Source of the DNA: Acholoe squamosa
Lineage: Eukaryota; Annelida; Polychaeta; Phyllodocida; Polynoidae
Direction: 5' to 3'
Assembly: GCA_949317995.1 (NCBI GenBank)
Contig: OX439043.1
Location: 1,232,501-1,296,500, forward strand
Length of the DNA stretch: 64,000 bases
The position numbers were made by a program, and so were the translations under genes. The notes under the pieces were generated by a model. The model did no database searches. It worked only from the letters and a program-made list of their open reading frames with translations, and had not been told where the DNA came from. Position 1 is the stretch's first letter; each line of letters opens with the position of its first letter. This document shows positions 2,380-49,588 of the stretch, piece by piece.

Positions 2380-2593
2380 AATTAGATATATGTGTAGCAG
2401 ATGATTATGCTAGTAAAAGCATCTATAGGGGTTTTGTTTTTAATGCCCTCATCCTTTAATTGTTGTGTATTGTGTTCCTACCATGTTGTTTTGTGGATAT
2501 TTTGTGTTGTGCCACCTCAATGTTTGGGTCATTTCTGTGTCTAACATGACAAATGACACAGAATAAGCCATTCAACGTAAATGAATGCATTAG

Positions 2594-5090
2594 TGCATCA
2601 TGACCCTTAGTGCATCCTGCCCCTTAGTGCATCATGACCCTTAGTGCATCATGACCCTTAGTGCATCATGCCCCTTAGTGCATCATGACCCTTAGTGCAT
2701 CATGACCCTTAGTGCATCATGACCCTTAGTGCATCATGACCCTTAGTGCATCATGACCCTTAGTGCATCCTGCCCCTTAGTGCATCATGACCCTTAGTGC
2801 ATCATGCCCCTTAGTGCATCATGCCCCTTAGTGCATCATGACCCTTAGTGCATCATGACCCTTAGTGCATCGTCCCCCTTAGTGCATCATGACCCTTAGT
2901 GCATCATGACCCTTAGTGCATCATGACCCTTAGTGCATCATGCCCCTTAGTGCATCATGACCCTTAGTGCATCATGACCCTTAGTGCATCATGCCCCTTA
3001 GTGCATCATGACCCTTAGTGCATCATGACCCTTAGTGCATCATGACCCTTAGTGCATCGTGCCCCTTAGTGCATCGTGACCCTTAGTGCATCATGCCCCT
3101 TAGTGCATCATGACCCTTAGTGCATCATGCCCCTTAGTGCATCATGCCCCTTAGTGCATCATGCCCCTTAGTGCATCATGCCCATTGGTGCATCATGACC
3201 CTTAGTGTATCATGACCCTTAGTGCATCATGACCCTTAGTGCATCATGCCCCTTAGTGCATCATGACCCTTAGTGCATCATGCCCCTTAGTGCATCATGC
3301 CCCTTAGTGCATCATGCCCCTTAGTGCATCATGCCCCTTAGTGCATCATGCCCCTTAGTGCATCATGCCCATTGGTGCATCATGACCCTTAGTGCATCAT
3401 GACCCTTAGTGCATCATGACCCTTAGTGCATCATGCCCCTTAGTGTATCATGACCCTTAGTGTATCATGCCCCTTAGTGCATCATGCCCATTGGTGCATC
3501 ATGCCCCTTAGTGCATCATGCCCATTGGTGCATCATGACCCTTAGTGCATCATGCCCCTTAGTGCATCATGACCCTTAGTGCATCATGACCCTTAGTGCA
3601 TCATGCCCCTTAGTGCATCATGACCCTTAGTGCATCATGACCCTTAGTACATCATGCCCCTTAGTGCATCATGACCCTTAGTGCATCATGCCCCTTAGTG
3701 TATCATGACCCTTAGTGTATCATGACCCTTAGTGTATCATGACCCTTAGTGCATCGTGACCCTTAGTGCATCGTGACCCTTAGTGCATCATGACCCTTAG
3801 TGCATCATGACCCTTAGTGCATCGTGACCCTTAGTGCATCATGACCCTTAGTGCATCATGACCCTTAGTGCATCATGCCCATTGGTGCATCATGACCCTT
3901 AGTGCATCATGACCCTTAGTGCATCATGCCCCTTAGTGCATCATGCCCATTGGTGCATCATGACCCTTAATGCATCATGACCCTTAGTGCATCATGACCC
4001 TTAGTGCATCATGACCCTTAGTGCATCCTGCCCCTTAGTGCATCATGACCCTTAGTGCATCATGCCTCTTAGTGCATCATGCCCATTGGTGCATCATGAC
4101 CCTTAATGCATCATGACCCTTAGTGCATCATGACCCTTAGTGCATCATGCCCATTGGTGCATCATGCCCATTGGTGCATCATGACCCTTAATGCATCATG
4201 ACCCTTAGTGCATCATGACCCTTAGTGCATCATGACCCTTAGTGCATCATGCCCCTTAGTGCATCATGGCACTTGGTGCATCATGACCCTTAGTGCATCG
4301 TCCCCCTTAGTGCATCATGACCCTTAGTGCATCATGACCCTTAGTGCATCATGACACTTGGTGCATCATGACCCTTAGTGCATCGTCCCCCTTAGTGCAT
4401 CATGACCCTTAGTGCATCATGACCCTTAGTGCATCATGACCCTTAGTGCATCATGCCCCTTAGTGCATCATGACCCTTAGTGCATCATGCCCCTTAGTGC
4501 ATCATGACCCTTAGTGCATCATGACCCTTAGTGCATCATGCCCCTTAGTGCATCATGACCCTTAGTGCATCATGACCCTTAGTACATCCTGCCCCTTAGT
4601 GTATCATGACCCTTAGTGCATCATGACCCTTAGTGCATCATGCCCCTTAGTGCATCATGACCCTTAGTGCATCATGCCCCTTAGTGCATCATGACCCTTA
4701 GTGCATCATGCCCCTTAGTGCATCATGACCCTTAGTGCATCATGACCCTTAGTACATCCTGCCCCTTAGTGTATCATGACCCTTAGTACATCATGCCCCT
4801 TAGTGCATCATGACCCTTAGTGCATCATGACCCTTAGTACATCATGACCCTTAGTGTATCATGACCCTTAGTGTATCATGACCCTTAGTGCATCATGACC
4901 CTTAGTGCATCGTGACCCTTAGTGCATCATGCCCATTGGTGCATCATGACCCTTAGTGCATCGTGACCCTTAGTGCATCATGACCCTTAGTGCATCATGA
5001 CCCTTAGTGTATCATGACCCTTAGTGCATCATGACCCTTAGTGCATCCTGCCCCTTAGTGCATCGTGACCCTTCGTGCATCGTGCTGAGC
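2594..5090. repeat. Minisatellite, 17-bp unit, ~2.5 kb
   Basis: Roughly 145 head-to-tail copies of a 17-bp unit, TTAGTGCATCATGACCC, with recurrent variants (GCCCC for GACCC, TTGG for TTAG, GTATC for GCATC). Variants are interspersed, as expected from unequal exchange or slippage. Each unit carries the TGCATCATG core seen in several other arrays of this window. Confidence 0.97.
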
Positions 5091-8627: not shown

Positions 8628-11600
8628 GTAAGTACACGCAATGAAATCGTCGCCTTAGTGCAAGAAGGTTGTAACTGCATTTTTCTAGTTTTGCAGGAGA
8701 GGCAAAAGAAATGTTCCACTAACTCTAGCAAAAAGTGGAAACAGCAATATTGCATTGAGGTCTGTGGGCAGACATATAGGCAGAGGTTCAGTGCTTTCCT
8801 ACTGTAAATTCTCTCATATAAGCCGCATCCCTGGTATAAGCCGCAGCCTGAGTTGGGAGGAGACTATGAGCCACATCTAGGGTTTGAAAATAGGCAGTTT
8901 AGTACTATTCTATGGTGTTAAAACCACTCATATAAGCCGCACCCCAACTTGGGGCATATTTTATAAGCCACACTTTTATTTGGGTTCTGGTATATGCCGC
9001 GGCTTATACGAGAGAATTTACGGTAGTAGCAAGATAAGGGCCAATACATGTTAAAACAGAAAAAAATTCATTTTTGTCAACCATCTTGCACTAAGGCGAT
9101 GAAATAATGTACCATATTGTCATGAATAACATTTGGATGGCTGATTACTCACAGTCACGGACTGGATTCGACATTTATTTCAATGCTTGAATCTTAAAAT
9201 GTTAATTCCCCCTTTATTCTCCCTATTCTCCCTAATTAAAACCCAGCACTAAATGTGTTTTGATTGACCTGAATATTAGTGAATTCCAAATATATGTGGA
9301 TTGACAAGGCCCGTGAGGGGCTTCATAGAGTAGCCATTGTGAGAAACAAATGAGGAGCACTTTTGAACTAACACCACACAATAACACCAGATATGACTAC
9401 CATTTAGTGTCAGCAAACTAAAAGTTTTGTACCTAGAAATTTAAACATTAAATAATCATCACAATTGAATATTGAATGTTGTGTTATTTTTCCTACAGGT
9501 TTATAGAAGTTCTTGTTAAATACGGCGCAGACGTCAACTTCCAAAATGATGCAGGAAAGACAAGGTAGGGAGTTTATAAAAACTCCATAATATAACTGTA
9601 AAACCCCACCTGTACATTGACCGCCACCTATGACTCAACTTCTAAAAAAATGTTCGGAAACATTTTTCACTGTGGTGAAAACTCTTACATGCAGGACGGC
9701 CTTATACACAGGATACTCTGATAATACGCTAGTTTTCTCACCATGAATATAACTCAAAATAACATTCACTCACTCAATCTTCAACTTGATCTTTAAACAG
9801 TTTTCTACATTTAGTATTTAATTCAAAACTTATCACCATCACCATTGATGTTAGAGTGCAACCCTTATTTCATGCTTCCATTCCCCCTCTGTCTCAGCTT
9901 GATGCTGGCAGCGTATGCAGGACAGACGGCGGCCATCAAGGAGCTGCGACATTTTGGTGCCAAATATGAACTCCAGGATAAAGGAGGTTCTACCGCACTA
10001 CACTGGGCGATGGACGGCGGGAACCAAGAACTTATAGACTGGATGGTGGAGGATGGAGCAGACCTCAGCTGTGTCGACTTTAACGGATGGACCCCGCTAC
10101 TACGGATAGGTAATATATAGATTTGTATGTAATATGGTTGGACCCCGCTACTATAGATAGGTAATATATAGATTTGTATGTAATATGGATGGACCCCGCT
10201 ACTACAGATAGGTAATATATAGATTTGTATGTAATATGGATGGACCCGCTACTACGGATAGGTAATATATAGATTTGTATGTAATATGGTAGGACCCGCT
10301 ACTATAGATAGGTAATATATAGATTTGTATGTAATATGGTAGGACCCGCTACTATAGATAGGTAATATATAGATTTGTACGTAATATGGATGGATCCCGC
10401 TACTATAGATAGGTAATATATAGATTTGTATGTAATATGGATGGATCCGCTACTACTGATAGGTAATATATAGATTTGTATGTAATATGGATGGATCCGC
10501 TACTACGGATAGGTAATATATAGATTTGTATGTAATATGGATGGATCCGCTACTACGGATAGGTAATATATAGATTTGTATGTAATATGGATGGACCCGC
10601 TACTACAGATAGGTAATATATCGATTTGTATGTAATATGGGCTGACCCGCTACTAAGGATAGGTAATATATAGATTTGTATGTAATATGGATGGACCCCG
10701 CTACTATAGATCGGTAATATATAGATTTGTATGTAATATGGATGGACCCGCTACTATAGATAGGTAATATATAGATTTGTATGTAATATGGTTGGACCCG
10801 CTACTATAGATAGGTAATATATAGATTTGTACGTAATATGGATGGATCCCGCTACTGCGGATAGGTAATATATAGATTAGTATGTAATATGGGTGGACCC
10901 CGCTACTACAGATAGGTAATATATAGATTTGTATGTAATATGGTTGGACCCGCTACTATAGATAGGTAATATATAGATTTGTATGTAATATGGATGGACC
11001 CCGCTACTACGGATAGGTAATATATAGATTTGTATGTAATATGGTTGGACCCCGCTACTATAGATAGGTAATATATAGATTTGTATGTAATATGGATGGA
11101 CCCCGCTACTATGGATAGGTAATATATAGATTTGTATGTAATATGGATGGACCCCGCTACTATGGATAGGTAATATAGATTTGTATGTAATATGGTTGGA
11201 ATTTACTAGTCCTAACTAGTTTGGCATTTCTACCTGTAGTTGTTATAGGCTAATACATGATCCGTGACCATATTTTGCATTACGTCTTTACCTTGTGTGA
11301 CAACCCTCAGTTGTGACCCATTCTCGTGCTCCTTTGTATCATCTCAATTTATTTTAGTTTGAAATGTTCAAAGTTCCATTTATTTGGCATTAAAAATGAT
11401 TTTATCATCAGTTATGTGTCCATTTAGGATACTCTAAGGGGCAGTGTTTGATGGGAAGGGTTATCACACTGGGGGCTGTGATACACTCTGAGTGGCAGTG
11501 TTTTATGGGGGAGGGTTATCACACTGGGGGCTGTGATACACTCTGAGTGGCAGTGTTTTATGGGGAAGGGTTATCACACTGGGGGCTTTGATACACTCTG

Positions 11601-16257: not shown

Positions 16258-16545
16258 GCTGCATTGATGTATCATGATGTCCAATGGGCATGATGCATGA
16301 ATGCATCATGATGACCAATGGGCATGATGCATGAATGCATCATGATGTCCAATGGGCATGATGCATTAATGCATCATGATGTCCAATGGGCATGATGCAT
16401 GAATGCATCATGATGACCAATGGGCATGATGCATGAATGCATCATGATGTCCAATGGGCATGATGCATGAATGCATCATGATGTCCAATGGGCATGATGC
16501 ATGAATGCATCATGATGACCAATGGGCATGATGCATGAATGCATC
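16258..16545. repeat. Tandem repeat, 34-bp unit with CATGATGCATGAATGCAT
   Basis: About eight copies of a 34-bp unit consisting of CATGATGNCCAATGGGCATG followed by ATGCATGAATGCAT. The unit is rich in inverted symmetry and belongs to the TGCATCATG group. Confidence 0.9.
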
Positions 16546-17331
16546 AGCAGCCTTTAAGTAGTGAATGAATTAATCATGTTGTATTCTAACTCAGTCCCTG
16601 ACATCATGTATACAGTCTCTAGTCTCATCCCAGAGGCTGTCAGTAATTAGAATGTAACTTGTGTTATATGTAAGTCATGTTGATAATTCTTCCTGACATG
16701 CAGATTTAACCTACCTAGCATTTCTACAAGTGTGAGAGATAGTTAGCAGTGTGTAATATAGGAGGAGAGTGTGTATTTATGTTATAAGTCCAGAGAAGAC
16801 TTGATGTCATATAGCAATCTAAGTACAGATTTTTGATGTAAACAATTGACAGTGCCAGACCGCAAATGAATAATATCCTTTGAAACATTTACTGCTAAAC
16901 CTCGCGTTAAGGTAGAAAAAAACTGTAAGCCACACATGTGGTGTGAAAAATGAAAACACAGGAAATGGATGTAATTGGTCGAAATAATGACGGAAAGATT
17001 AACTTTTTCTCCTGCATTGGTGCATCAGGATGAATAAAGGGAGATGCACTAATGCATCATGATGCACTAATGCATCATGATGCATTAATGCATCATGATG
17101 CATTAGTGCATCATGATGCATTAGTGCATCAGGATGGTACAGGGAGATGAAGGCATCATGCTGTCCTTAAAGGGAATATGTCATGTACTTAATAACAAAA
17201 CTCCGTCCATGCAAGTTATTCCTTTATTGGCCTGTCGGTCATGTAGCAGTGACAAAGTACTCCATTATTAAGAGTCTGATTGGTAGCATTTGTTAATCAA
17301 TGTTATACGATATTATGTATGCATGTCAAAT

Positions 17332-24717: not shown

Positions 24718-24727
24718 ATGGCATTAG
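24718..24727 (+). CDS. Cytokine-like gene exon 1 (10 coding bases)
   Basis: ATGGCATTAG|GTACGT: Met-Ala-Leu plus the first base of Gly, phase 1. Chosen because joining to 25636 creates a signal peptide and because the next exon has no initiator of its own in frame. Too short to be seen as an ORF. Confidence 0.65.
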
Positions 24728-27700
24728 GTACGTCACACCCAGAGATGCCACACTTTTTTAAACTTTTTTAAGAATTTCGAATTTATGAATGCATCATGAT
24801 GTATCAATGCATCATGATGTATCAATGCACTACACCCGTCAGTCATCACGGTCGGTGGAAGGTTGTTTGATACAATGTGCTGCGCCTACCCCCTTTTTCT
24901 GACTCCATTTATAAGGCACATTATCAGAAACGATAAGTACAACATTCAACCATCATGCCCAAATAAGAATAAAACTACCTGAAATCATTATTACTGCTCA
25001 TTTGCCCATTGCATTATTCTCTAAGCCATCACTATCAACCTATTGAATGTTAAACCTTTCCATTCTCCCTACCACACACTACTCCTGAACTCCAGAAAAA
25101 AAAATATTTTCAAAAATGCCTTTATTCTCAAATCCACCATTAGCCTTTAGATCCATTGCTTGTAAAATGTTCTCAATGTTTATCCCTGCAATGTATGGTT
25201 AACGAATTCCAGTGTGAGAAATGTCAGATTCAATACTTTTCATTTGCACCTTTTCACCAAAATAATTCAGGGGTCTTTTGTTTCTCCAATGACTACCTAT
25301 TTTATGGCTTGATTATGGCAGTGATGATGTCTACTAGATATATATGCGAGGTCAAGATATCCTTTGTCAACTTGTTAATATTTGAGAAAATGTTGAAAAA
25401 TTGGGGGGTTCTCCCGTAGACAGCCACAAGGGTTCTCCATCTTCAGATGTCAATAACTCTGAAACTAACACAATGAACCATGGTTTTTATTGCTTCACCT
25501 ATCTCATATCATATGAAACTAACGTAATTCCAAGTGATTTGTAGAAATTGATGATAGTTTAGGATTTATCAAAATGTGGTATATACCTTTGATTAGGCCT
25601 GTATCAATAACTTGGCTCCATTCTGACTATTGCAGGTTATCCGCTGTTTACAGCCATCTTGTGCGTGTGTCTTGACACAAGTCTTGAATTCTACGTGCCC
25701 CCCGGGGCCCCCTGGCTGTACCCGTGTGGAATGGAGCCTACATCAAGGTACCGGGGGCCACCTGTCCCCCCGTCCCCCCTCCCCCTCCTCTACAAAAACC
25801 CCTTCCAGGACCTGACACACGTGAGACACCTGGTGGCTGGAACCAGCAAACTACTGAAAAAGCTGCGCACTGTGTATGTAAGTATATACCGACCTAACGG
25901 AATACATTTTTGACCAATGAGATAATTCCCTTAATTCAGTACGGTCTGTTTAGGGTACATCATCATGCTGGCTGCTATCATTGCTTATCTTGAAGGGTAC
26001 CAGATTCAGCAATGGTGCCCCCTACAAAGGAACCTGCAAACTCAGTATAGGAAGTCCTCTCTCAGCTCTATATCGCTGCTAATGCATTAATGCATCATGC
26101 CCACTGGTCGTCATGATACATGAATACAGCTCTATATCGCTGCTAATGCATTAATGCATCATGCCCACTGGTCGTCATGATACATGAATGCAGCTCTATA
26201 TCGCTGCTAATGCATTAATGCATCATGCCCATTGTTTGTCATGATACATGAATGCAGCTCTATATCGCTGCTAATGCATTAATGCATCATGCCCACTGGT
26301 CGTCATGATACATGAATGTAGCTCTATATCGCTGCTAATGCATTAATGCATCATGCCCACTGGTCGTCATGATACATGAATACAGCTCTATATCGCTGCT
26401 AATGCATTAATGCATCATGCCCACTGGTCGTCATGATACATGAATGTAGCTCTATATCGCTGCTAATGCATTAATGCATCATGCCCACTGGTCGTCATGA
26501 TACATGAATGCAGCTCTATATCGCTGCTAATGCATTAATGCATCATGCCCATTGTTTGTCATGATACATGAATGCAGCTCTATATCGCTGCTAATGCATT
26601 AATGCATCATGCCCACTGGTCGTCATGATACATGAATGTAGCTCTATATCGCTGCTAATGCATTAATGCATCATGCCCATTGTTTGTCATGATACATGAA
26701 AGTAGCTCTATATCGCTGCTAATGCATTAATGCATCATACCCATTGTTTGTCATGATACATACATATAGATAATATAGATAATACTGTAAATAGAGAGGA
26801 GTGTGTTGATTGGTGTCAATATGTAATCATATACAGCCTCTACCTGTAGGGTGGATATTTGGTGGTTAATATTAACCCTTTAAGGGCCGCTTTAGCATGA
26901 TTGCATCATGCTCATTGGTCATGATGCAATAATGTTACCTGCCAGGGCTACATTCAAGCATCATGACGACCAATTGGGGTTGATACACAAACAAATGGCT
27001 CTTCTTGAGTAGTTTCCTTCATCATCCTTTTTCTTTTATTATTGCTTATGTTATGCTTTTCATCTAAATCACGTATTATCTTGTATCTAGGTGCGGGAAG
27101 TGTTCGGTAACCACATGCTCCATATTCACTCCCTGAGGCGCACCGGGGCGCCACATTTACTCAATAAGGGACTCCGCACCACACTTAGGGTACGTAAATC
27201 CACTTCCCACCTGAAGGGCAAGTAATGCATTAATGCATCAAACCCCGTAGGGTCAGCATGATGCATGAATGCATCAAAACCCGTAGGGTCAGCATGATGC
27301 ATGAATGCATCAAACCCCATAGGGTCAGCATGATGCATGAATGCATCAAACCCCGTAGGGTCAGCATGATGCATGAATGCAGCCCTGGTGAGTCACTTGC
27401 CAGTCTACATTCATGCAGCCTCTGACCCCCAGGGGGTATTGGAATATACCGCCTGGGCTGGCCCTGTACTTTTCATCACCATGCCCCCATTAATTTATTA
27501 AGTATAATTAAAAATGGGCAGTCCAAGGCTGCCCATTTTATAGCGTCACAAGTCACAAGTAAAGACTGGTCCAGGCCCTAATATGGGCCTGGATTAGCGA
27601 GGGAGTGCATCATGCTGACCCTACGGAGCTTGATGCACTACTGAAGGAGCGGCTTCAAGTGCGTGTAAGCAGACTTACAAACACTACATTGGTGCATCGT

Positions 27701-29273
27701 GACGACCAATGGGCATGATGCTCGCTGAAGCATAATGCAGACCCTCCAGGACAGTATCGACTCTGTAGGGTTGAAATAATGCTTGAATGTAGCCCTGGCG
27801 AATAACTCAGTAGGCCTACATGCATTCGTCATGACAACCAATTGCAATGATGCATTGATGCATTAGTGGCTATTATAGGGTAATACACACCCACACAGAT
27901 GAGAGTACAATCAGCGAGTCGTGTGTCATTGCCTTGGGACATTAACTTGACACCGCTGTTATATATCCATATCATATATATTTACTATGCTCTGTCATAC
28001 GCACAGGGTTTACATATTTCTGACTCTTGCACCCACCTACATAGTTTTCTCCATTATGAATGATTCATGTAATGACAGCTGGGGGGGGGGGGTGTTAGCC
28101 CTTTTCTCACCTATTTCCCTTATCCTTTTGGGCATTTTATCCTTCATAAGGCAACTTTGAAAGGTTATGGAAATTACTTAGTTATTCAATGAATAGAATA
28201 AAAATCTCAGCAAAGATATTAAAAAAGAATTCTACTTATTGAATTGGGATACTATGTTAATTGTCAATTATCCTTTAAGGCCATTCAAATCAAATCTTTC
28301 TATTTTCCTCTTATGGATACTATATTCTGATAATTCATGCTGATGACTAACATTACCCTTCCACTGAAGCCTCTATAAGTGGCTGCCTGGGGACAGCCAC
28401 TGATCACTCAATAGGGAGCTATGGAATGAAACTGTGACTCACATATAAGCAATGGGGTTTCTACAAGTCCTTTGGCAGTATTTGATAGTTCAAATTAAAG
28501 GTGTGCGCATTGCCATAGGCTTGATATCAGTGATTTTGTTTGTTAGTTCACCAATTTTCAGTTCCCAAAATCCTGACTGCTATTGTGCACTATTATGCTC
28601 CTAGCAGATTATGTAATTGATAACTAGGGGGAATGAGTATCATTAGATACATGACATACTATGAGGAAAGACATTGACATGGAATGGAATTGAAAATTGT
28701 CTTCTTTCACCATGATAACTTTATGTTTTCATAGTGATATCAGTCTCAATTTCCCAATATTGAGACCACATTTTGTCAACCTTCCATTTACCCCCAAGGA
28801 TGCTCTCCATATACTACTGACTACACATTATGTGTTGTATATAAATTACTTATAACTGACTTTTCCTTCTGCAGATGCCTACCAGAGACAAGTTGCTTGT
28901 GGTCTACCAGAACCTGATACGGGCAGCCATATTGGTTCACGTGGTACAGCGCGACCATGCGGCACACATTAACCGCCACACATCCGGTTCTCTCCATGTG
29001 ACAGAACTCCTGGGTTTGGTGGAACATGGAGGGATGTATAGTGGTCATGTTGTGACTGGAGGACTTTATAATATTCTGTGCAGACTGCGGATTATACTCG
29101 GATTGTCCGGTAACCTCCCAGAGGTCACTGATAGTGGACTTAGCACCATCATGACACAGCTAGGTCATGTGACATCAACAGCCACACGACATAATAGGGA
29201 CTTCAGGATCATCATCAGTGTACGACAGTTACTGCGGAGAGTTGGGATGATACTCGATACGATACCACCGTAA
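24718..29273 (+). CDS. Candidate class-I four-helix cytokine, LIF/CNTF-like (four exons)
   Basis: Exons 24718-24727, 25636-25877, 27091-27189 and 28875-29273 join without a frame break to a 249-residue precursor. Residues 1-20 form a signal peptide with core YPLFTAILCVCL. After a proline-rich segment (25-56) come four predicted amphipathic helices: A about 62-90 (DLTHVRHLVAGTSKLLKKL), B about 120-145, C about 160-193 (with GLYNILCRLR) and D about 224-246 (FRIIISVRQLLRRVGMIL). Intron phases are 1-0-0, with a tiny first exon coding M-A-L and one base of G; that layout is typical of long-chain class-I cytokine and growth-hormone genes. The G-L-x-N-[IV]-L-C-R-L string and the D helix resemble LIF. 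Only two cysteines (C34, C186) follow the signal and there is no N-glycosylation sequon. The role as a secreted ligand of a gp130-type receptor is inference; it could instead be an unrelated helical secreted protein. Confidence 0.6.
25636..25877 (+). CDS. Cytokine-like gene exon 2: signal peptide and helix A
   Basis: Acceptor CTGACTATTGCAG, donor GTGTAT|GTAAGT. Codes the hydrophobic signal core, a proline-rich linker around PPVPPSPLPLLYKNP, and the predicted A helix. Phase 1 in, phase 0 out. The GC content is higher than that of the flanks, as for other real exons here. Confidence 0.75.
26064..26760. repeat. Minisatellite, 64-bp unit, in intron 2 of the cytokine-like gene
   Basis: About 10.7 copies of a unit with CTCTATATCGCTGCTAATGC, ATTAATGCATCATGCCCACT and GGTCGTCATGATACATGAAT. 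It belongs to the TGCATCATG group and varies mainly at CACTGGTCG/CATTGTTTG. Confidence 0.95.
27091..27189 (+). CDS. Cytokine-like gene exon 3: A-B loop
   Basis: Acceptor TCTTGTATCTAG, donor CTTAGG|GTACGT; 33 codons, phase 0 on both sides. Codes VREVFGNHMLHIHSLRRTG and onward to LLNKGLRTTLR. Confidence 0.75.
27220..27390. repeat. Tandem repeat, 36-bp unit (four copies)
   Basis: Four copies of GCATCAAACCCCGTAGGGTC followed by AGCATGATGCATGAAT, 30 bases after the donor of exon 3. Related mosaic sequence continues at 27600-27880 and upstream at 26880-27000. Confidence 0.9.
27400..28874 (+). other. Intron 3 of the cytokine-like gene
   Basis: Besides the mosaic TGCATCATG repeats (27600-27880) and a poly-G run at 28081 it looks like ordinary AT-rich intron sequence. 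Confidence 0.55.
28875..29273 (+). CDS. Cytokine-like gene exon 4: helices B, C and D
   Basis: Acceptor TTTTCCTTCTGCAG, 132 codons and TAA. Holds KLLVVYQNLIRAAILVHVV (B), the GLYNILCRLR segment (C) and FRIIISVRQLLRRVGMIL (D). In LIF and CNTF a single final exon also carries these three helices. Confidence 0.8.
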   Translation: MPTRDKLLVVYQNLIRAAILVHVVQRDHAAHINRHTSGSLHVTELLGLVEHGGMYSGHVVTGGLYNILCRLRIILGLSGNLPEVTDSGLSTIMTQLGHVTSTATRHNRDFRIIISVRQLLRRVGMILDTIPP

Positions 29274-33902: not shown

Positions 33903-33973
33903 GGGGATGTAGCTCAGTGGTAGAGCGCTCGACTTGCAAGCGAGAGACCCGGGTTCGAATCCCGGTGTCTCCA
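33903..33973 (+). tRNA. tRNA-Ala (anticodon TGC), copy 1
   Basis: 71-nt cloverleaf: acceptor GGGGATG with TGTCTCC and discriminator A, including the G3-U70 pair that is the alanine identity element; D arm GCTC-AGTGGTA-GAGC; anticodon loop CTTGCAA with TGC at 34-36; T arm CCGGG-TTCGAAT-CCCGG. A-box and B-box promoters are intact and a TTTT terminator follows at 33981. Oddities are an A-G mismatch at the base of the anticodon loop (31-39) and a four-base variable loop. Confidence 0.9.
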
Positions 33974-34361: not shown

Positions 34362-34432
34362 GGGGATGTAGCTCAGTGGTAGAGCGCTCGACTTGCAAGC
34401 GAGAGACCCGGGTTCGAATCCCGGTGTCTCCA
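34362..34432 (+). tRNA. tRNA-Ala (anticodon TGC), copy 2
   Basis: Identical to the copy at 33903 and part of the 459-bp duplication, with the same downstream TTTT. Identity over the full duplicated block means that the duplication is recent or homogenised. Confidence 0.9.
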
Positions 34433-38140: not shown

Positions 38141-41100
38141 TCCCTTTTTCTATTTCTTTCCCTCTCTTTCACAAACTATTCTCTGCTCTGTCCCTCTGCC
38201 TTGAATTTGCAAAAGAAAAACAGACTAAGCCGATTTGTGGCTTAAAGTTATAAAGTTACACAGATACCAACCATAGAAGTGCAATGTTAAACAACTAATA
38301 AGTATGCAATATACTGTGCCTGTGAACCTGGATAACCTTTAACACATATGTGCACTTATTACGACTGTGCCTGTGAACCTGGATAACCTTTTAACACATA
38401 TGTGCACTTATTACGACTGTGCCTGTGAACCTGGATAACCTTTTAACACATATGTGCACTTATTACGACTGTGCCTGTGAACCTGGATAACCTTTAACAC
38501 ATATGTGCACTTATTACGACTGTGCCTGTGAACCTGGATAACCTTTAACACATATGTGCACTTATTACGACTGTGCCTGTGAACCTGGATAACCTTTAAC
38601 ACATATGTGCACTTATTACGACTGTGCCTGTGAACCTGGATAACCTTTAACACATATGTGCACTTATTACGACTGTGCCTGTGAACCTGGATAACCTTTA
38701 ACACATATGTGCACTTATTACGACTGTGCCTGTGAACCTGGATAACCTTTAACACATATGTGCACTTATTACGACTGTGCCTGTGAACCTGGATAACCTT
38801 TAACACATATGTGCACTTATTACGACTGTGTCTGTGAACCTGGATAACCTTTAACACATATGTTCACTTATTACGACTACTGATGATGAATCATTTAAGG
38901 ATCTTAATGACTTTTCTGTCACGATTCTCCTACTTGAGGAGATGTGGCTTTGTTTCTTAATAGAGATGGTAGTCTTGTTGGTTTCATATTGCAGCTTTGG
39001 GAATTTTAGCATTGGGACTTCTATTAATGGGACAATGTGAAAGAAAGAATCGCATGTTCCGTGAAAAAAAGTTCAGCATCGTGAATATCAAAAAGAATGA
39101 ATCACCACAATAAAAGGTCTACCCGTCATACCTTTTATTGTGTTGATCCACACATTTGATCTGATAGTGTTTATTTTAATGATGGAGTCGCCTTGCATAC
39201 AGTTGTTACAGTGGGCACACAACATAACGCGGACACTAACTCAGACACTAACTCAGTGTCTGTACAAGTCTCTACCCCTGAGTCGCTCCTGCAGCACACC
39301 TACAGCATGTCGGCCGGTGTAACACATGACCTGTACCTTAACACCTCCTACTACCTCACACCTGGAATGATTGAAACTAAAAGTAAGCAGATGGTCTGTT
39401 TAATCATTGGGTCTCAAAAAAATGCTGCGGGTATAGGTATATTGAGATTAATTGGTAAGCACTAAAAATAGTGTTTGTATAAGTGACTGTATTGTATAAG
39501 CAATGGCAGTAAAATTGAAATCAATGTGCAAACGTGTGCCTATACAGGGCAGTGCGGTATTCAGTTTAGGACCGAAATGAACATAATAGGATTTGATTTT
39601 CAAAAATGAAAAAGGCGATTTAGTTTTCACCGAGTCACTGCCACCTGCCGTGAATCATTAGATTTGGAGCTTACTTTGGGGAAACTTCATATGAAGGTTC
39701 TTCTTATAAATTCAAATCTCCATATACTCTAGATTCTAGACTATAACATACCTACTAACTTTTTCAGCACTCCGTCTGACAGCATCAGATCCGGTTACAT
39801 GTCGAGTTGATGTCGGGACTAACCAACCTTATCTCTCTCTGCCCTCTCAGTGGACAGGTAAATAGTCTATTCATATTGTTACTTTCATAACTCTTGAATC
39901 ACTGATAAGGAGTGCATCATGCCCATTGGTTGGCATGATGCACCAATGAAGAACCTTTCTCCAATCTTCCTGTACGTCACAATTTTAAGTGTTTTTTTTT
40001 TCCTTTGCCAAGTGGGAAGAGACAGTGCACTTAGCAGATTTTAAATCAGAGGCATAGGAAGCAAATCTTCATGGGGGGGGGGGGCTTGAATTGTCGGCTG
40101 ATGCGTGATGGCGTCTATACATAGCCAGTATTGAACTCACATGACTCGTATTTGCCATATGGCTCAAGAAGCATATGGCCTTTATAAGGCTAAAATCTGC
40201 CTTAGAAAGGGTGGGGTTTGCCGGTGCCCCAGCCTCGAACCGACATCAATAAAGTATTGAGTGTCCCAGGTTTTACCCTCATTCTTTTTGCAAAAAACTA
40301 CTGCAGCCACTCATGCTAATTATTTATAAACTCCATTACCAATTGGTAAGCGAAGTGATATATAATGATGCTAGGCTTAGTGGTTGAAATGTCACCAAAA
40401 TATGAAATTAAAGTTGGTATATCCGCAAAAAAGACAGATTTGAAAATTAGTGGAAACACATCTAAATATTTTGTAAATGCTCATCTCTTTTGCTGTGCAT
40501 ATATTGTTCCAATCACTACTGGCCCCTAGTGCCTCAACATGAAGTGTGTAATCACAACACACTACACTTCACTGGATGGCCCTTGATATTGCTGCTCACC
40601 ACAGCACCACCTTTTAGCTACTCTAACAGGCTTTGTGTCGTGTTTAGTACACCTTGAGGATTAGGGCTGGATATTCATTCACAGCACACAGGCTCCCTCT
40701 ATATGAAATCAGACACACCTTATTTAAAACTAGGATAGGAATAAATACAGGGCATAGATTTTCTTTGTTTTGGAGCAGAAACATTTCATATAATCACTAG
40801 ATATTTTAACACATGATTTAGAATGTTGATTAGATGGCATTTGATGAGAAATCCCACATTTCATACTGTGATAGCGGCTATGCCCACTTTAACATACCAT
40901 TGTCTTTACCAGGTACAGAGTACTATGTCTCCACACCACCTGCTATGTCAATCCTGGCTTTTGTAGCCCGATTCGCTGACACTAACATTATACTAACATT
41001 AACTGGGAACATGTCCAACATGACTCTCCCACAGTCTGTGCTTAAAGAGGCAAACACAGTGAACTTCACATTAGGAGAAAATGAAACTTGACAGGTGCAA

Positions 41101-44100
41101 TCAGACGGTGAGACACTGTCTGGTCCTGTCATCCAATCAACACAGCCTGTTGGAGTAGTCTTTGTTGGCTGGTTGCGCTGCCCTACCTAACCGATAAGGG
41201 CAGGTAGCTACCAGCGGACCTTGTGACGTCACGAGCTCTCCTAGAGCTCGTGACGTCACAGAATATCATTATCATAAATTATAATTTGCATATCACTCTC
41301 CAAGCATTGGCAAAGTACAAAGCCTTGGTATAGGAGAGTGTGTCACTCTCCTATACCAAGTCTTTGTACTTTGCCAATGCTTGGAGCTGACCTATATTGC
41401 TAACCACCTGCGGGCTATTCGCATCGATCCCGCAGTGGTACCAGCGAATAGTCTTTGGAGCTGTGATGACGTCATCAGAGGTTGGTCCTGGTGAGGGCCG
41501 TGTGGTGGCGCCACTGCTGCCTACCAGTGTGTGGGGGAGGAGGTTTGTTGTTGTGCTGCCTCCCCTACAGGGGGTGCATGTGTATGTGCATGTAGTGGGT
41601 AAGTTGTGCTTTAGTAGAAATAGTTATATTTTAGGTTATTATTAGACTACACCTTTAAAGTTATAGTGCCAGCTGTAACGTCATAATCTATGTGTTACAT
41701 AGTAACAGTCTATGCTGGCCCCAATTCGGATTCAAGTTCAGAATCCAATGAAGATTGTGCTTGAGCCTTGAAATGACCATGTCAGGAATCAGGTTATGGT
41801 CTCCCATCATATATTGTGGGAAAAAACAGGACCGAATTCGGCCATTTATAAAGTTGACATGAAAATAGCAAATATATACATACAATGGGTACAAAACATT
41901 TAAAAACATTCTGTCGATTCACAATTGTGATTTAATGTCTGCAACTGAAGTTTCCAGTGCATCATTGGTGCATCATGATGAGTTTGTTTACATTTTCCGG
42001 CTGAGTTTGTTTACTTTTTTTTTGGCGAGGACTGACAAGTTACAATACAACTTTACACCTAAATCACACAGTCAATAGTGTGTGAGGCATTCATGGTCGT
42101 GTAGAAGTATGTGACAGTGGCACTATGTGATGCACTCATGGTCGTGTAGAAGTATGTGACAGTGGCATTGTGTGATGCACACATGGTCGTGTAAAAGTAT
42201 GTGACAGTGGCACTGTGTGATGCATTCATGGTCGTGTAGAAGTATGTGACAGTGGCACTGTGTGATGCATTCATGGTCGTGTAGAAGTATGTGACAGTGG
42301 CATTGTGTGATGCATTCATGGTCGTGTAGAAGTATGTGACAGTGGCATTGTGTGATGCATTCCTGGTCGTGTAGAAGTATGTGACAGTGGCACTGTGTGA
42401 TGCACTCATGGTCATGTAGAAGTGACAGTGGCATTGTGTGATGCACACATGGTCATGTAGAAGTATGTGACAGTGGCATTGTGTGATGCATTCCTGGTCG
42501 TGTAGAAGTATGTGACAGTGGCACTGTGTGATGCACACATGGTCATGTAGAAGTATGTGACAGTGGCACTGTGTGATGCATTCATGGTTGTGTAGAAGTG
42601 ACAGTGGCACTGTGTGATGCACACATGGTCATGTAGAAGTGACAGTGGCACTGTGTGATGCACTCATGGTCGTGTAGAAGTGACAGTGGCACTGTGTGAT
42701 GCACTCATGGTCATGTAGAAGTGACAGTGGCACTGTGTGATGCACACATGGTCATGTAGAAGTGACAGTGGCACTGTGTGATGCATTCATGGTCGTATAG
42801 AAGTATGTGACAGTGGCACTGTGTGATGCATTCATGGTCATGTAGAAGTATGTGACAGTGGCACTGTGTGATGCACATATGGTCGTGTAGAAGTGACAGT
42901 GGCATTGTGTGATGCACTCATGGTCGTGTAGAAGTGACAGTGGCACTGTGTGATGCACATATGGTCGTGTAGAAGTGACAGTGGCACTGTTTGATGCATT
43001 CATGGTCGTGTAGAAGTATGTGACAGTGGCACTGTGTGATGCACTCATGGTCATGTAGAAGTATGTGACAGTGGCATTGTGTGATGCATTCATGGTTGTG
43101 TAAAAGTATGTGACAGTGGCATTGTGTGATGCACTCATGGTCGTGTAGAAGTATGTGACAGTGGCACTGTGTGATGCACTCATGGTCATGTAGAAGTATG
43201 TGACAGTGGCACTGTGTGATGCATTCATGGTCGTGTAGAAGTATGTGACAGTGGCACTGTGTGATGCACTCATGGTCGTGTAGAAGTATGTGACAGTGGC
43301 ACTGTGTGATGCACTCATGGTCATGTAGAAGTATGTGACAGTGGCACTGTGTGATGCATTCATGGTCCTGTAGAAGTGACAGTGACAGTGGCATTGTGTG
43401 ATGCACTCATGGTTGTGTAGAAGTGACAGTGACAGTGGCACTGTGTGATGCATTCATGGTCGTGTAGAAGTGACAGTGACAGTGGCACTGTGTGATGCAT
43501 TCATGGTCGTGTAGAAGTATGTGACAGTGGCACTGTGTGAGGCATTCATGGTCGTGTAGAAGTATGTGACAGTGGCACTGTGTGATGCACTCATGGTCAT
43601 GTAGAAGTATGTGACAGTGGCACTGTGTGATGCACTCATGGTCGTGTAGAAGTGACAGTGACAGTGGCACTGTGTGATGCATTCATGGTCGTGTAGAAGT
43701 ATGTGACTGTGGCACTGTGTGATGCATTCATGGTCGTGTAGAAGTGACAGTGGCACTGTGTGAGGCATTCATGGTCGTGTAGAAGTATGTGACAGTGGCA
43801 CTGTGTGATGCACTCATGGTCGTGTAGAAGTGACAGTGGCACTGTGTGATGCATTCATGGTCATGTAGAAGTGACAGTGGCACTGTGTGATGCATTCATG
43901 GTCGTGTAGAAGTATGTGACAGTGGCACTGTGTGATGCATTCCTGGTCGTGTAGAAGTATGTGACAGTGGCATTGTGTGATGCACACATGGTCGTGTAGA
44001 AGTATGTGACTGTGGCACTGTGTGATGCACACATGGTCGTGTAGAAGTATGTGACAGTGGCACTGTGTGATGCATTCATGGTCATGTAGAAGTGACAGTG

Positions 44101-47100
44101 GCACTGTGTGATGCATTCATGGTTGTGTAGAAGTATGTGACAGTGGCATTGTGTGATGCACACATGGTCGTGTAGAAGTGACAGTGGCACTGTGTGATGC
44201 ATTCATGGTCGTGTAGAAGTATGTGACAGTGGCATTGTGTGATGCACACATGGTCGTGTAGAAGTATGTGACAGTGGCACTGTGTGATGCATTCATGGTC
44301 GTGTAGAAGTATGTGACAGTGGCACTGTGTGATGCACTCATGGTTGTGTAGAAGTATGTGACAGTGGCACTGTGTGATGCATTCATGGTCATGTAGAAGT
44401 GACAGTGGCACTGTGTGATGCACTCATGGTTGTGTAGAAGTATGTGACAGTGGCACTGTGTGATGCACACATGGTCGTGTAGAAGTATGTGACAGTGGCA
44501 CTGTGTGATGCACTCATGGTCATGTAGAAGTGACAGTGGCACTGTGTGATGCACTCATGGTCGTGTAGAAGTATGTGACAGTGGCACTGTGTGATGCACT
44601 CATGGTCGTGTAGAAGTATGTGACAGTGGCACTGTGTGATGCATTCATGGTCATGTAGAAGTATGTGACAGTGGCACTGTGTGATGCACACATGGTCGTG
44701 TAGAAGTATGTGACAGTGGCATTGTGTGATGCACACATGGTCGTGTAGAAGTATGTGACAGTGGCACTGTGTGATGCATTCCTGGTCGTGTAGAAGTATG
44801 TGACAGTGGCATTGTGTGATGCACACATGGTCGTGTAGAAGTATGTGACAGTGGCACTGTGTGATGCATTCCTGGTCGTGTAGAAGTGACAGTGACAGTG
44901 GCACTGTGTGATGCACTCATGGTCATGTAGAAGTATGTGACAATGGCACTGTGTGATGCACACATGGTCATGTAGAAGTATGTGACAGTGGCACTGTGTG
45001 ATGCACACATGGTCGTGTAGAAGTATGTGACAGTGGCACTGTGTGATGCATTCCTGGTCGTGTAGAAGTATGTGACAGTGGCATTGTGTGATGCACACAT
45101 GGTCGTGTAGAAGTATGTGACAGTGGCACTGTGTGATGCATTCCTGGTCGTGTAGAAGTATGTGACAGTGGCATTGTGTGATGCACACATGGTCGTGTAG
45201 AAGTATGTGACAGTGGCACTGTGTGATGCATTCATGGTCGTGTAGAAGTATGTGACAGTGGCACTGTGTGATGCATTCATGGTCATGTAGAAGTATGTGA
45301 CAGTGGCATTGTGTGATGCACACATGGTCGTGTAGAAGTATGTGACAGTGGCACTGTGTGATGCATTCATGGTCGTGTAGAAGTATGTGACAGTGGCACT
45401 GTGTGATGCATTCATGGTCGTGTAGAAGTATGTGACAGTGGCACTGTGTGATGCACACATGGTCGTGTAGAAGTATGTGACAGTGGCACTGTGTGATGCA
45501 TTCATGGTCATGTAGACGTATGTGACAGTGGCATTGTGTGATGCACACATGGTCGTGTAGAAGTATGTGACAGTGGCACTGTGTGATGCACTCATGGTCA
45601 TGTAGAAGTATGTGACAGTGGCATTGTGTGATGCACACATGGTCGTGTAGAAGTATGTGACAGTGGCATTGTGTGATGCACACATGGTCGTGTAGAAGTA
45701 TGTGACAGTGGCATTGTGTGATGCACTCATGGTCATGTAGAAGTATGTGACAGTGGCATTGTGTGATGCACTCATGGTCGTGTAGAAAAGACAGTGGCAT
45801 TGTGTGATGCATTCATGGTCGTGTAGAAGTATGTGACAGTGGCACTGTGTGATGCACTCATGGTCCTGTAGAAGTATGTGACAGTGGCACTGTGTGATGC
45901 ATTCCTGGTCGTGTAGAAGTATGTGACAGTGGCACTGTGTGATGCACTCATGGTCGTGTAGAAGTGACAGTGACAGTGGCACTGTGTGATGCACTCATGG
46001 TCGTGTAGAAGTATGTGACAGTGGCATTGTGTGATGCACACATGGTCGTGTAGAAGTATGTGACAGTGGCACTGTGTGATGCATTCATGGTCGTGTAGAA
46101 GTGACAGTGGCACTGTGTGATGCATTCATGGTCGTGTAGAAGTGACAGTGGCACTGTGTGATGCACTCATGGTCGTGTAGAAGTGACAGTGGCACTGTGT
46201 GATGCATTCATGGTTGTGTAGAAGTATGTGACAGTGGCACTGTGTGATGCACTCATGGTCATGTAGAAGTATGTGACAGTGGCACTGTGTGATGCATTCA
46301 TGGTCGTGTAGAAGTATGTGACAGTGGCACTGTGTGATGCATTCATGGTCGTGTAGAAGTATGTGACAGTGGCACTGTGTGATGCACTCATGGTTGTGTA
46401 GAAGTATGTGACAGTGGCACTGTGTGATGCACTCATGGTCGTGTAGAAGTGACAGTGGCATTGTGTGATGCAACATTTAGTATAATACTAATGTCACTGC
46501 AGTAAATTGCTTTATACATTTGCATCATCACAAAATATTAAGAGGGATGCAAAAAGATTTAACTGCTATCAGAGAGGGCGCATCAGCTTTTTGTATGTCC
46601 TGTGAGGTTTTACCATCCCCCTCTCCTATCAGTAATGAACACTCTTTTAACTAGGGAATGAACATTTTTAACAAGGGGGGCAGAGGGGAGGAGGGTGGGT
46701 TATCGCACCTCCTGCCAGTCAAAGAGTCGGGAAGATTTACTCTCGCCCTCAACCTATCCCCCTGTTGTTAAGAAATCATCACTCACTTATCACCATGTAA
46801 CCCTACTCTGATAAACTGCTGGTTAATCTACACATCTTACATAGGGTAGATTAACCTAAAGACTCACCTATCACCAAGTGACCCTACTCTGATAAACTGC
46901 TGGTTAATCTACACATCTTACATAGGGTAGATTAACCTAAAGACGACCACATACCTAGAGTCGACCACCTGTCAGCTTGTTTTTCTCACTTTCATATGTA
47001 GTGTATTGGTCTTAAACCCTAATATTATTGAAATAGAGGTGTTATAGTACCCCATAGAATGATGTCCTGGAATATATGAAGTAATTGTCAATGCATGATA

Positions 47101-49588
47101 ATACCCTAAAGTTCCCATGTTTAAATGGTTTTTACCATGAACAGCTGGTCATTTCATCAGAATTCTCCAACTTTGGTTCGATGATTTGAAGATGACACAT
47201 ATACAACATTTTGACTCTAGGCATAGATAAATATTTCCGCTAAATGATAGCATAAGGAAAAGTGCAGAAATGTTAGATACTTTCTGTATAGGACTTATTT
47301 CATGCCAATTTCACCTTGCGATGACCACAATTTCACCTTGAGATGACCACCCCTTACTGAGTTATTTATGCATTTCATTTAATAGATACCATTTATAATA
47401 TAGCATTACATCCAAAGATTCATATTTGGAACAGTTGTGAATACAAAATTTCTCTGGATGATGTTCTAATACACACATTTTAACCTTTACTGGAATCCTA
47501 CTACTAGTAGTATGTAGAGTAAGTTTGTGATACTGAGAGCATGATTGTAAAATCAAGAGCTGGGTTATTATAGTACATATTTCAAATTGATTAAAGCACA
47601 GTTAAAACAAAGCTTTTTTAATGCAGGTTTAGCATTATCACCTCTGTTTTGATGAGATTTACTATAATAATGGGCATGCCATTGTTCCAATTTTCATTTT
47701 ATTTTAGCCACTCTAAATCATATATTTTCCTTTTTGTGCAGTATCTTTAACAATGCCATTTTATTTCATATATTTAAGGAACTTGTTTAATCTTTGATGT
47801 TTTAATCAAAAGGGCTTTATCTAAAGGGTGGATATTAAGTGGTCGTCTCTAGGTGCAAAGTGGTCGTCTCAAGGTGAAATTGGACTAAATGGAATGTTTG
47901 TAGTAAGTGTGATAAACTAGAAATAAAATATATAAATGGATTTTCGAAATATAACAGGTACAAAAGCCCAAACAATCATCTTTCATTCAATGTATTTTGG
48001 AAGTCTGAAGACCCAAAACTTCCAGAGATATTAGGAACTGCAAATACCTGATTGAAAACCTGCACAGGAATGGTCGTCTTTAGGTTAATCTACCCTACCA
48101 TAAGACTCCATTGCCCAAGAGTCTTACATGACATATATCATCATTCATTCCATGGTGGATACAATCGTCACTAGAGATTAGTCCTAGAACCGCTGTATTT
48201 CATGGGGGATGTAATACGGTGCAGCCATATTCCATGGGTTGGTCACATGACACTCTGATGATGTCATAGCCTCAAAGTAGAAGCATAAACAATGCAAAAA
48301 AGAAGTGAATTGCTGGTAAAACCATGAGATATTTGCAAATGTCCCCTCCCATAGAATATTTTTGCATCGTATTCACATTGGTGGCATTGGTCGCCACCAA
48401 TGCCAACCCATGGTTGTAGACATCTGCTTATGAAATCTATCTCCATGTTTCAACTGCTCCGTGACCGTGTCCAACAAAACTAGCCGCGAGGAGTTTGACC
48501 AAGAGGTGTCAGGTCAGGCCAGGTATGACGTCATGTGTGACATCACATGTCCTGCTGTGCACATGCTCAGTACGTCTCCCGTCTCCATGACGTACTATGC
48601 CTTTCCCGGTAATGATGTCACTAATGCCATCATGACACATGTGACGCCTGCTGAACGTTACAACAATGACTACAGAGTAAGGACCTCGGACACTGACAGC
48701 GCCAGTCTACATGCTGTTATTGTGTCACCGCCTGAGCTCAGTCTGGATGGATTCATGATACATGCTGGGGGGAACTGGAAAAAGTTAACAATGGCGGCTG
48801 GTTCTGCGACACACTGGGCACCGTTAGATACTAATGGAACAATAGATGTGAGTGCACTCATGTGGGAAACCATTGGAAACTCTATGTTCAACTTCACTCG
48901 GATAAAGCTGAAGACTGCGGACAAACTCTATAGATTCAAACATGAGGCAGGAAAGACGGTGTCTTTTGGGCTGTTTGTGTACAGAGTCACAGAGTCGGCC
49001 ATCTTGGATATCCCCATGGAGATGAGGCTGGTCAAACTGTATGGTGCATGTTCAGAAACAACAGCAGTCCCCAGTGATGGTATCGATAACGACTGTGATG
49101 GAAGAGTGGATGAGGAATTAAAAGATGACAAAGATGACAATGATGGCAAGGTAGATGAGGATGTAACTGATGAAGAACCAATCACCAATCCCCCTGGTGG
49201 TCATGTGAACATGGCTGATGGTCATGTGACAATGGCTGATGGTACACCTCATACACCAACTACTCAGACCATAACCAGCATGATGACCAGCACACCTGAT
49301 GCTAATACCACAAACACAACAGAACAACCCACTCCTAGTACAATCGTCAAACCGACCAAAGCGCCAGCACATTTCACTAAGGAGATCATTATCTGTGTGT
49401 CTGTACTGCTGGGTGTTCCACTACTGATCGTCCTCTGGGTGGCAGTAGAGCCGTGTGTCATGAGTGACAAATTTGCGCCCGGGGGATGGGACAGGATGGG
49501 AAAACCTGAGGTGGTGCCTATACAAACCTTGGCACTCACACCCGGACCTGCCAACTACCACGACATGGAGGGTGAGACCTCATGTTGA
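37595..49588 (+). CDS. IgGFc-binding-domain membrane protein, interrupted (multi-exon)
   Basis: Visible exons: 37595-37713 (onset of the domain, GNSFLLVFPDIGW), 39203-39382, 39768-39857, 40913-41187, 41435-41598 and 48420-49588. Together they show the IgGFc-binding N-terminal domain of FCGBP-like proteins: ALRLTASDPV-like strand, LSGPVIQSTQPVGVVF, VWGRRFVVVLP, and a final THWAPLD…SFGLFVYRV part. The last exon adds an acidic metal-binding-type motif (GIDNDCDGRVDEE, as in Cu-binding MopE repeats), a Thr/Pro stalk, one membrane span (ICVSVLLGVPLLIVLWVAV) and a 35-40 residue tail, so it is a type I surface protein. Breaks: TGA at 41089, TAA at 41188, a one-base frameshift near 48460, and disagreeing phases between 41598 and 48420. 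Either the gene is decaying or the assembly has small errors. Role in mucosal or immune surface binding is inferred from the family. Confidence 0.65.
37666..38045 (+). repeat. 36-bp tandem repeat, in frame with coding exon, each unit with a splice donor
   Basis: About ten copies of a 36-bp unit, AGTCCTAACCCAGGTAACTA plus TGGTAACATGGTAGAC, read in one frame as SPNPGNYGNMVD. Each unit carries CCCAG|GTAACT, a good donor, always in phase 1. One unit (37702-37716) lacks a C and shifts frame. The translated array ends at about 38044, followed by a (TC)n tract. Confidence 0.9.
38091..38137. repeat. (TC)n microsatellite
   Basis: About 23 TC dinucleotides in the intron after the 36-bp array. Confidence 0.95.
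38313..38878. repeat. Minisatellite, 51-bp unit
   Basis: Eleven very similar copies of CTGTGCCTGTGAACCTGGAT, AACCTTTAACACATATGTGC and ACTTATTACGA. The unit is a multiple of three, which explains a 148-codon minus-strand open frame. Confidence 0.97.
39203..39382 (+). CDS. IgGFc gene exon
   Basis: Acceptor CTTGCATACAG (or TTGTTACAG at 39211), donor CTAAAA|GTAAGC, phase 1 on both sides. Codes SVSVQVSTPESLLQHTYSMS and TSYYLTPGMIETK, matching the second and third strands of IgGFc-binding domains. Confidence 0.65.
39768..39857 (+). CDS. IgGFc gene exon
   Basis: Acceptor TAACTTTTTCAG, donor TGGACAG|GTAAAT, phase 1 on both sides, 90 nt. Codes LRLTASDPVTCRVDVGTNQP and SLPSQWTG, the typical A-[IV]-x-[IV]-x-A-x-x-P-V strand of the domain. 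Confidence 0.75.
40913..41187 (+). CDS. IgGFc gene exon with in-frame TGA
   Basis: Acceptor TGTCTTTACCAG, phase 1 in. Codes TEYYVSTPPAMSILAFVARF, then a TGA at 41089-41091, then in the same frame QVQSDGETLSGPVIQSTQPV and GVVFVGW. Similarity to the family continues on both sides of the TGA, so the stop is a substitution (TGG to TGA would suffice), a sequencing error or a true null allele. A TAA follows at 41188. Confidence 0.6.
41222..41260. repeat. Perfect 18-bp hairpin with CRE motifs
   Basis: TGTGACGTCACGAGCTCT, loop CCT, then the exact reverse complement. Each arm itself contains the palindrome TGACGTCA. Confidence 0.9.
41300..41384. repeat. 41-bp inverted repeat, one mismatch, 3-base loop
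   Basis: The arms 41300-41340 and 41344-41384 are reverse complements except for one base; loop TGT. Starts CCAAGCATTGGCAAAGTACA. Lies 40 bases from the preceding hairpin, between two IgGFc-like coding pieces. Confidence 0.92.
41435..41598 (+). CDS. IgGFc gene exon (or exon fragment)
   Basis: Acceptor GATCCCGCAG, donor TAGTGG|GTAAGT. Codes VVAPLLPTSVWGRRFVVVLP, the family's LP-x-x-x-W-G-x-x-F-x-V-x-P segment. The start of the exon reads better in another frame (SCDDVIRG), so a frameshift may lie near 41480. Phase 1 out. Confidence 0.55.
42075..46475. repeat. 4.4-kb minisatellite, mixed 45- and 39-bp units
   Basis: Roughly 100 copies of a unit with GATGCATTCATGGTCGTGTA, GAAGTATGTGACAGTGGCAC and TGTGT. 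Two length forms alternate: 45 bp, and 39 bp lacking TATGTG; a few have an extra ACAGTG. Position-specific variants are CATTCATGG, CACTCATGG, CACACATGG and CATTCCTGG. Both lengths are multiples of three, giving minus-strand open frames of up to 447 codons that are artefacts. It lies within an intron of the IgGFc gene. Confidence 0.98.
46780..46935. repeat. ~80-bp tandem duplication at left end of a TIR element
   Basis: Two copies of a segment containing CCCTACTCTGATAAACTGCT, GGTTAATCTACACATCTTAC and TAGGGTAGATTAACC. Each copy is itself nearly an inverted repeat (GGTTAATCTAC…GTAGATTAACC). Confidence 0.85.
46923..48097. mobile_element. ~1.2-kb element with 27-bp terminal inverted repeats
   Basis: The left TIR 46923-46949 (TAGGGTAGATTAACCTAAAG…) is exactly inverted at 48071-48097. 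A second inner pair, AATTTCACCTTGAGATGACC near 47330 against GGTCGTCTCAAGGTGAAATT near 47870, is also inverted. No transposase-like open frame lies between, so it is non-autonomous. Confidence 0.7.
48420..49588 (+). CDS. IgGFc gene exon: domain end, acidic motif, TM and tail
   Basis: Likely acceptor CATGGTTGTAG at 48419. The first 40 bases read YEIYLHVSTAP in one frame and then VSNKTSREEFDQEVSGQARY in another; one missing G near 48460 explains the shift. The remaining 375 codons are open: domain end, GIDNDCDGRVDEELKDDKDD, a Thr-rich stalk, a TM span at about 49380-49450, and a tail with PIQTLALTPGPANYHDME. The frame stops at TGA 49586-49588, but a good donor (GGAGG|GTGAGA) lies at 49571, so the exon may splice onward. 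Confidence 0.75.

Follow-up and report, generated by a model that had tools for sequence, protein, structure and literature searches.

Does a short gene in the genome of the polychaete Acholoe squamosa encode a class-I cytokine ligand? The gene lies at 24718 to 29273 on the plus strand of the window, by which we mean the whole 64,000-nucleotide stretch analyzed (GenBank assembly GCA_949317995.1, contig OX439043.1, positions 1,232,501 to 1,296,500), and an initial annotation proposed that its product is a LIF/CNTF-type four-helix cytokine. The best reading is that the product is a secreted, long-chain, class-I-type four-helix cytokine, to which we assign a probability of roughly 0.6, because the exon layout, the intron phases, the correspondence of exons to putative helices, the predicted secretion, and the placement of two cysteines fit it. 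Sequence comparison alone cannot prove kinship with LIF, IL-6, or growth hormone (GH), and the narrower LIF/CNTF assignment was not established.

The gene, its product, and its exon layout

The four exons (Table 1) join into one 750-base frame encoding 249 residues and a stop codon, and the coordinates, the 10-base first exon, the phase-1 intron followed by phase-0 introns, and the product length proposed initially were all reproduced. Splice sites were scored with a simple consensus matrix and ranked among every GT or AG of the window; the donors of introns 1 to 3 ranked at percentiles 99.0, 98.8, and 98.0 and the acceptors at 98.8, 96.3, and 99.4. The G+C fractions of exons 2 to 4 were 0.58, 0.57, and 0.49, those of the introns were 0.36, 0.40, and 0.41, and that of the 10-base exon 1 was 0.40, while third codon positions had 58% G+C. 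The start codon is flanked by A at −3 and G at +4. Thus, the single frame, the GT-AG introns, the high splice-site percentiles, and the G+C contrast between exons and introns make it very likely that the gene is real. The mere 10 bases of exon 1 could suggest that the 249-residue protein is not made, either because the model is partly wrong (exon 1 or 3 unused or a different start) or because the locus is decayed or unexpressed, but the single open frame, the strong splice sites, the G+C contrast of exons 2 to 4, and the good start context make this improbable. In a tblastn search of the window for a second copy, the only matches beyond the gene's own exons had E values of 2.8 or worse. As a separate observation, each of the three introns contains one minisatellite.

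Judged from Kyte-Doolittle hydrophobicity, residues 1 to about 20 resemble a signal peptide (mean of 2.49 over residues 6 to 16), consistent with the proposed secretion. A proline-rich segment containing C34 follows, and the proline-free stretches comprise residues 60 to 104, 120 to 198, and 200 to 247. The only cysteines outside the signal peptide are C34, before putative helix A, and C186, in putative helix C; the sole tryptophan, W30, also precedes helix A, and the 249 residues contain no N-glycosylation site. The strings GLYNILCRLR and FRIIISVRQLLRRVGMIL, assigned to helices C and D, are present in the product as claimed. An AlphaFold2 model of exon 4, made with no alignment, was mostly helical (residues 121 to 152, 159 to 169, 175 to 194, 203 to 219, and 222 to 245 in protein numbering). 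It supports helicity only weakly, because its mean predicted local distance difference test (pLDDT) score was 40.2, which is very low confidence. The claim of four amphipathic segments was not confirmed, since the helical moments of A to D were not above those of shuffled controls: the best 15-residue moment was reached by fractions of 0.105, 0.424, 0.567, and 0.103 of the shuffles for A, B, C, and D, respectively, and the whole-segment moment was reached by 0.50, 0.60, 0.076, and 0.66.

The best evidence for a cytokine is the exon layout, which is close to the generally known layouts of GH1, EPO, IL6, and LIF. In these genes a tiny phase-1 first exon is followed by phase-0 introns, one of which lies near the end of helix A; the IL6, GH, and EPO genes have a separate exon for the A-B loop, and the first coding exon of GH1 is 10 bases long. 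The combination of a tiny phase-1 first coding exon with phase-0 introns is common among class-I long-chain cytokines and is present here. Intron 2 separates KLRTVY from VREVFG, directly after the tyrosine at the end of putative helix A, and CNTF (TESY, then VKHQG) and LIF (FILY, then YTAQG) likewise have a phase-0 intron after a tyrosine at the end of helix A. For CLCF1, three exons are described (PMC8780587).

The layout speaks for helical cytokines generally and only partly for class I, because in the class-II genes IFNL2/3 the first coding exon is described as specifying four residues plus one base of a split codon, and the introns after it as phase zero (PMC2654155). This shared arrangement counts against a class-I assignment and would fit a class-II helical cytokine of the interleukin-10/interferon-lambda grade. 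However, the IFNL and IL10-family genes described in that source have five or six exons (PMC2654155), whereas here putative helices B to D occupy one 399-base exon, and the LIF-like helix C together with the putative pairing of an N-terminal with a helix-C cysteine points to class I, so that we regard a class-II product as very improbable.

Returning to the class-I reading, the helix-C string aligns with that of LIF without gaps (SGHVVTGGLYNILCRL versus TADILRGLLSNVLCRL), and in this alignment C186 falls on the first cysteine of the LCRLC of LIF. Two disulfides of LIF, C34-C156 and C40-C153 in LIF numbering, are described as tying the segment before helix A to helix C, a tether that keeps this segment rigid for its contact with gp130 and may account for the independence of LIF from an alpha receptor (PMC10022904). 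By analogy, the annelid product could carry one such tether between its N terminus and helix C, C34-C186. In the mechanism that we envisage, the signal peptide would be removed and residues of approximately 62 to 90 (A), 121 to 152 (B), 159 to 194 (C), and 222 to 245 (D) would pack in an up-up-down-down bundle, in which the connection between B and C would be short and those between A and B (mostly exon 3) and between C and D longer. From the N-terminal segment, C34 would bond with C186, like one of the two corresponding LIF disulfides, and the ligand would join two class-I receptor chains, IL6R/gp130-like or GHR-like, leading to JAK-STAT signaling.

Similarity to known cytokines and subfamily

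The resemblance to LIF is weak and derives mainly from helices B and C, and much of what follows weighs against the class-I reading. Local alignments were made with CNTF, LIF, CLCF1, IL-11, IL-6, and GH using two matrices and two kinds of shuffling (24 tests). The smallest fraction of shuffles reaching the observed score was 0.047 (IL-11, BLOSUM62, full shuffle), and all others were at least 0.08; with BLOSUM45 and full shuffling, the fractions were 0.657 for CNTF, 0.187 for LIF, 0.123 for CLCF1, 0.080 for IL-11, 0.473 for IL-6, and 0.363 for GH. The reversed protein scored higher than the true one with BLOSUM45 (57 versus 39 for CNTF and 69 versus 67 for IL-11). The same test on known relatives gave 0.513 for LIF with IL-6 and 0.873 for CNTF with IL-6, but 0.000 for both CNTF with CLCF1 and IL-11 with IL-6.

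Collinear placement of the four LIF helix blocks on the product gave a P value of 0.019 against shuffles. Blocks B and C landed on predicted helices B (123 to 147) and C (164 to 193), block A landed at 76 to 103, partly outside predicted helix A, the D block alone gave a P value of 0.80, and reversed LIF blocks scored 31, compared with 36 for the true ones. With blocks from other cytokines the P values were 0.915 (CNTF), 0.23 (IL-11), 0.062 (GH), and 0.042 (CLCF1), yet the B block of CLCF1 was placed on predicted helix A. As controls, the LIF blocks gave 0.005 with CNTF and 0.004 with CLCF1, but 0.515 with IL-11 and 0.495 with GH. The 16-residue helix-C block alone matched LIF with a P value of 0.0007, although this block was selected because it had already been flagged. 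A helix-D register shared with LIF by eye, F-x(7)-QLL, was dropped as evidence because of the P value of the D block and because the best collinear placement uses a different register.

The comparison with a three-sequence LIF/CNTF/CLCF1 profile in hhalign came out in both directions: the score of 18.6 was matched by only 1 of 100 shuffles, but the reported probability was only 1.1%. This method has little power, because true cytokines outside the profile scored just 15.9 (IL-6), 12.8 (IL-11), and 10.3 (GH), below the candidate.

Database searches yielded no relatives. With the complete protein, exon 2, or exon 4 as the query, Pfam returned no family at an E value of ≤10, and thus no match to the LIF/OSM model (LIF_OSM). 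Searches of PDB gave one unrelated enzyme at an E value of 0.36 for the whole protein, which is not meaningful, two unrelated chains at 0.31 for the helix-A segment, and no match for exon 4 or the helix-D segment. The LIF-like string is genuinely there but unexceptional in such a search, an unbiased check whose outcome opposed the initial proposal: phmmer with the helix-C segment against 177,635 PDB sequences listed seven matches, all SV2A (E values of 4.3 to 8.9), and did not retrieve LIF. The absent matches are mild negatives, because CNTF, LIF, and CLCF1, used as control queries, also failed to retrieve each other from PDB at an E value of ≤10. A Foldseek search with the exon-4 model gave nine matches, the best at an E value of 2.4, with no cytokine among them, and is uninformative because of the pLDDT of 40. 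When viral contigs (IMG/VR) were scanned with the spliced protein, three stretches fitted a pattern and none was a relative; phage records gave no match.

These negative searches, the alignment scores within or near the shuffle range for six cytokines, and helices B and C that are no more amphipathic than shuffles would all suit a real, secreted, helical, lineage-specific protein without cytokine kinship, such as one with a small lipid-binding or reproductive role, in which the cytokine-like gene layout would be coincidental. Such a coincidence would have to produce the phases 1, 0, and 0, the 10-base first exon, the division of exons into helix A, loop, and helices B to D, and the C34/C186 pair in combination, and it would leave the result with the LIF blocks to chance; we therefore consider this alternative unlikely, though the foremost competitor of the class-I reading.

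Within class I, the LIF/IL-6 grade is our best guess for a subfamily, but a tentative one that we would sooner expect to fail than to hold. Ligands that bind LIFR are described as having in common an FXXK motif where helix D begins, at LIFR site 3, and CNTF and CLCF1 as having a common tryptophan at site 1 (PMC10022904). Helix D of the product starts with F227-R-I-I230, in which the FXXK lysine is absent, a further point against the reading, and the site-1 tryptophan is absent as well, W30 lying before helix A. The gene was not assigned to LIF/OSM or CNTF/CLCF1 because these residues are absent, although its product may work like those ligands. Thus, the general proposal of a class-I ligand fits layout, phases, exon-to-helix match, secretion, and cysteines, whereas the LIF/CNTF type does not follow from the block, profile, and motif results; in particular, the collinear blocks revealed no resemblance to CNTF. 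The most specific form of the hypothesis, an IL-6/LIF-grade ligand outside vertebrates that has a LIF-like disulfide tether and acts on a gp130-like chain without an alpha receptor, is doubtful to the same degree as the subfamily guess.

Neighboring features of the window

A neighboring gene with a Pfam Ank match, presumably FANK1-like, has an ankyrin-repeat exon whose 3′ end and donor site are tandemly repeated at 10085 to 11200 on the plus strand with a 50-base period; with its own copy counted, 21 ungapped copies reach an identity of ≥80%. A second boundary duplication involves an exon end at 56167 and 56094 on the minus strand, with the copy just downstream in the intron, in a gene with an EF-hand match that looks by eye like a myosin regulatory light chain. 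Repeats of exon/intron boundaries ("mirages") are described for the amphioxus globin, Adh, and TnC genes, and similar ones in PGBD5 (PMC3087553, PMC3902484), and the boundary repeats of the two neighboring genes are of this type. The 4.4-kb minisatellite (Table 1) is open in several minus-strand frames of up to 447 codons, and these open reading frames are probably repeat artifacts. Several minisatellites with differing units have, by eye, a common core resembling GCATCATG, which frequently lies within palindromes (GATGCATTAATGCATCAT).

Table 1. Coordinates of the cytokine-like gene and of other features in the window
Feature	Position	Strand	Description
Exon 1, coding part	24718-24727	+	ATGGCATTAG, 10 bases; the intron after it is phase 1
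Intron 1	24728-25635	+	908 bases, GT-AG, phase 1; small 18-base array at 24784-24829
Exon 2	25636-25877	+	Encodes most of the signal peptide, the Pro-rich N-terminal segment containing C34, and putative helix A to Y84
Intron 2	25878-27090	+	1213 bases, GT-AG, phase 0; 64-base minisatellite at 26063-26761
Exon 3	27091-27189	+	33 codons; putative A-B loop, preceded by the last part of helix A
Intron 3	27190-28874	+	1685 bases, GT-AG, phase 0; 36-base minisatellite at 27225-27381, just inside
Exon 4 with stop	28875-29273	+	399 bases; putative helices B, C (GLYNILCRLR, C186), and D (FRIIISVRQLLRRVGMIL)
Two tRNA-Ala(TGC)	33903-33973, 34362-34432	+	68.5 bits each; 459 bases apart, apparent direct repeat
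IgGFc-binding similarity	40834-41088	+	Weak, E value of 0.026
4.4-kb minisatellite	42079-46472		45-base units, about 99 copies
384-codon frame	48434-49585	+	MopE metal-binding-motif match below cutoff; transmembrane-like stretch by eye
Minisatellites with common core	2590-5081, 16260-16546, 17043-17136, 24784-24829, 26063-26761, 27225-27381, 63603-63637		Differing units; core seen by eye

Relation to known systems

A 2026 BLAST survey that included cephalochordates (E value of ≤1e-5, identity of ≥30%) is reported to have placed IL-6-family ligands only in vertebrates, with IL6R homologues reaching back to molluscs and JAK and STAT present in sponges (PMC13203501). These thresholds are very likely too strict to catch a gene such as the one described here. 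A product of class-I type would be a candidate ligand to pair with receptors of its own genome, and it would suggest that cytokines missed by similarity searches can be detected from gene layout together with the positions of cysteines. If it is of the IL-6/LIF grade, the gp130 ligand family would predate vertebrates, contrary to the placement in that survey. Among the matches listed in the literature, none besides insect Unpaired (Upd) was a nonvertebrate four-helix ligand of the IL-6 or LIF type.

Like the annelid product, LIF is secreted and has a similar helix-C string (GLLSNVLCRL versus GGLYNILCRL here); the first exon of its gene is likewise tiny and phase 1, and a phase-0 intron falls where helix A ends. 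It differs in having three cysteine pairs, compared with one possible pair here, and in lacking a counterpart of the loop exon 3, and there is no significant overall similarity to it in local alignment; the FXXK lysine of such ligands is missing from the annelid product. The IL-6, GH, and EPO genes share the tiny phase-1 first exon, the phase-0 introns, and the A-B loop exon, and GH1 the 10-base exon too, whereas here helices B, C, and D lie in one exon; neither IL-6 nor GH shows significant sequence similarity, and EPO was compared by layout alone. The cysteine that precedes putative helix A and the one within putative helix C recall the C40-C153 pair of LIF (PMC10022904).

The remaining parallels lie outside vertebrates and were drawn from descriptions of the proteins. 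Divergent class-I cytokine genes are on record for amphioxus (PMC9010856), and one of them, GHl (GenBank KJ735508, according to the same source), is a divergent type-I helical cytokine outside vertebrates, as proposed for the annelid product, but its precursor is given as 208 residues (PMC9010856), compared with 249 here. In shrimp, other ligands of Domeless are reported, namely, a C-type lectin (PMC5645147) and a peroxiredoxin (PMC9195186). The insect Upd proteins resemble the annelid candidate as invertebrate ligands that are described as acting on a gp130-like receptor, Domeless.

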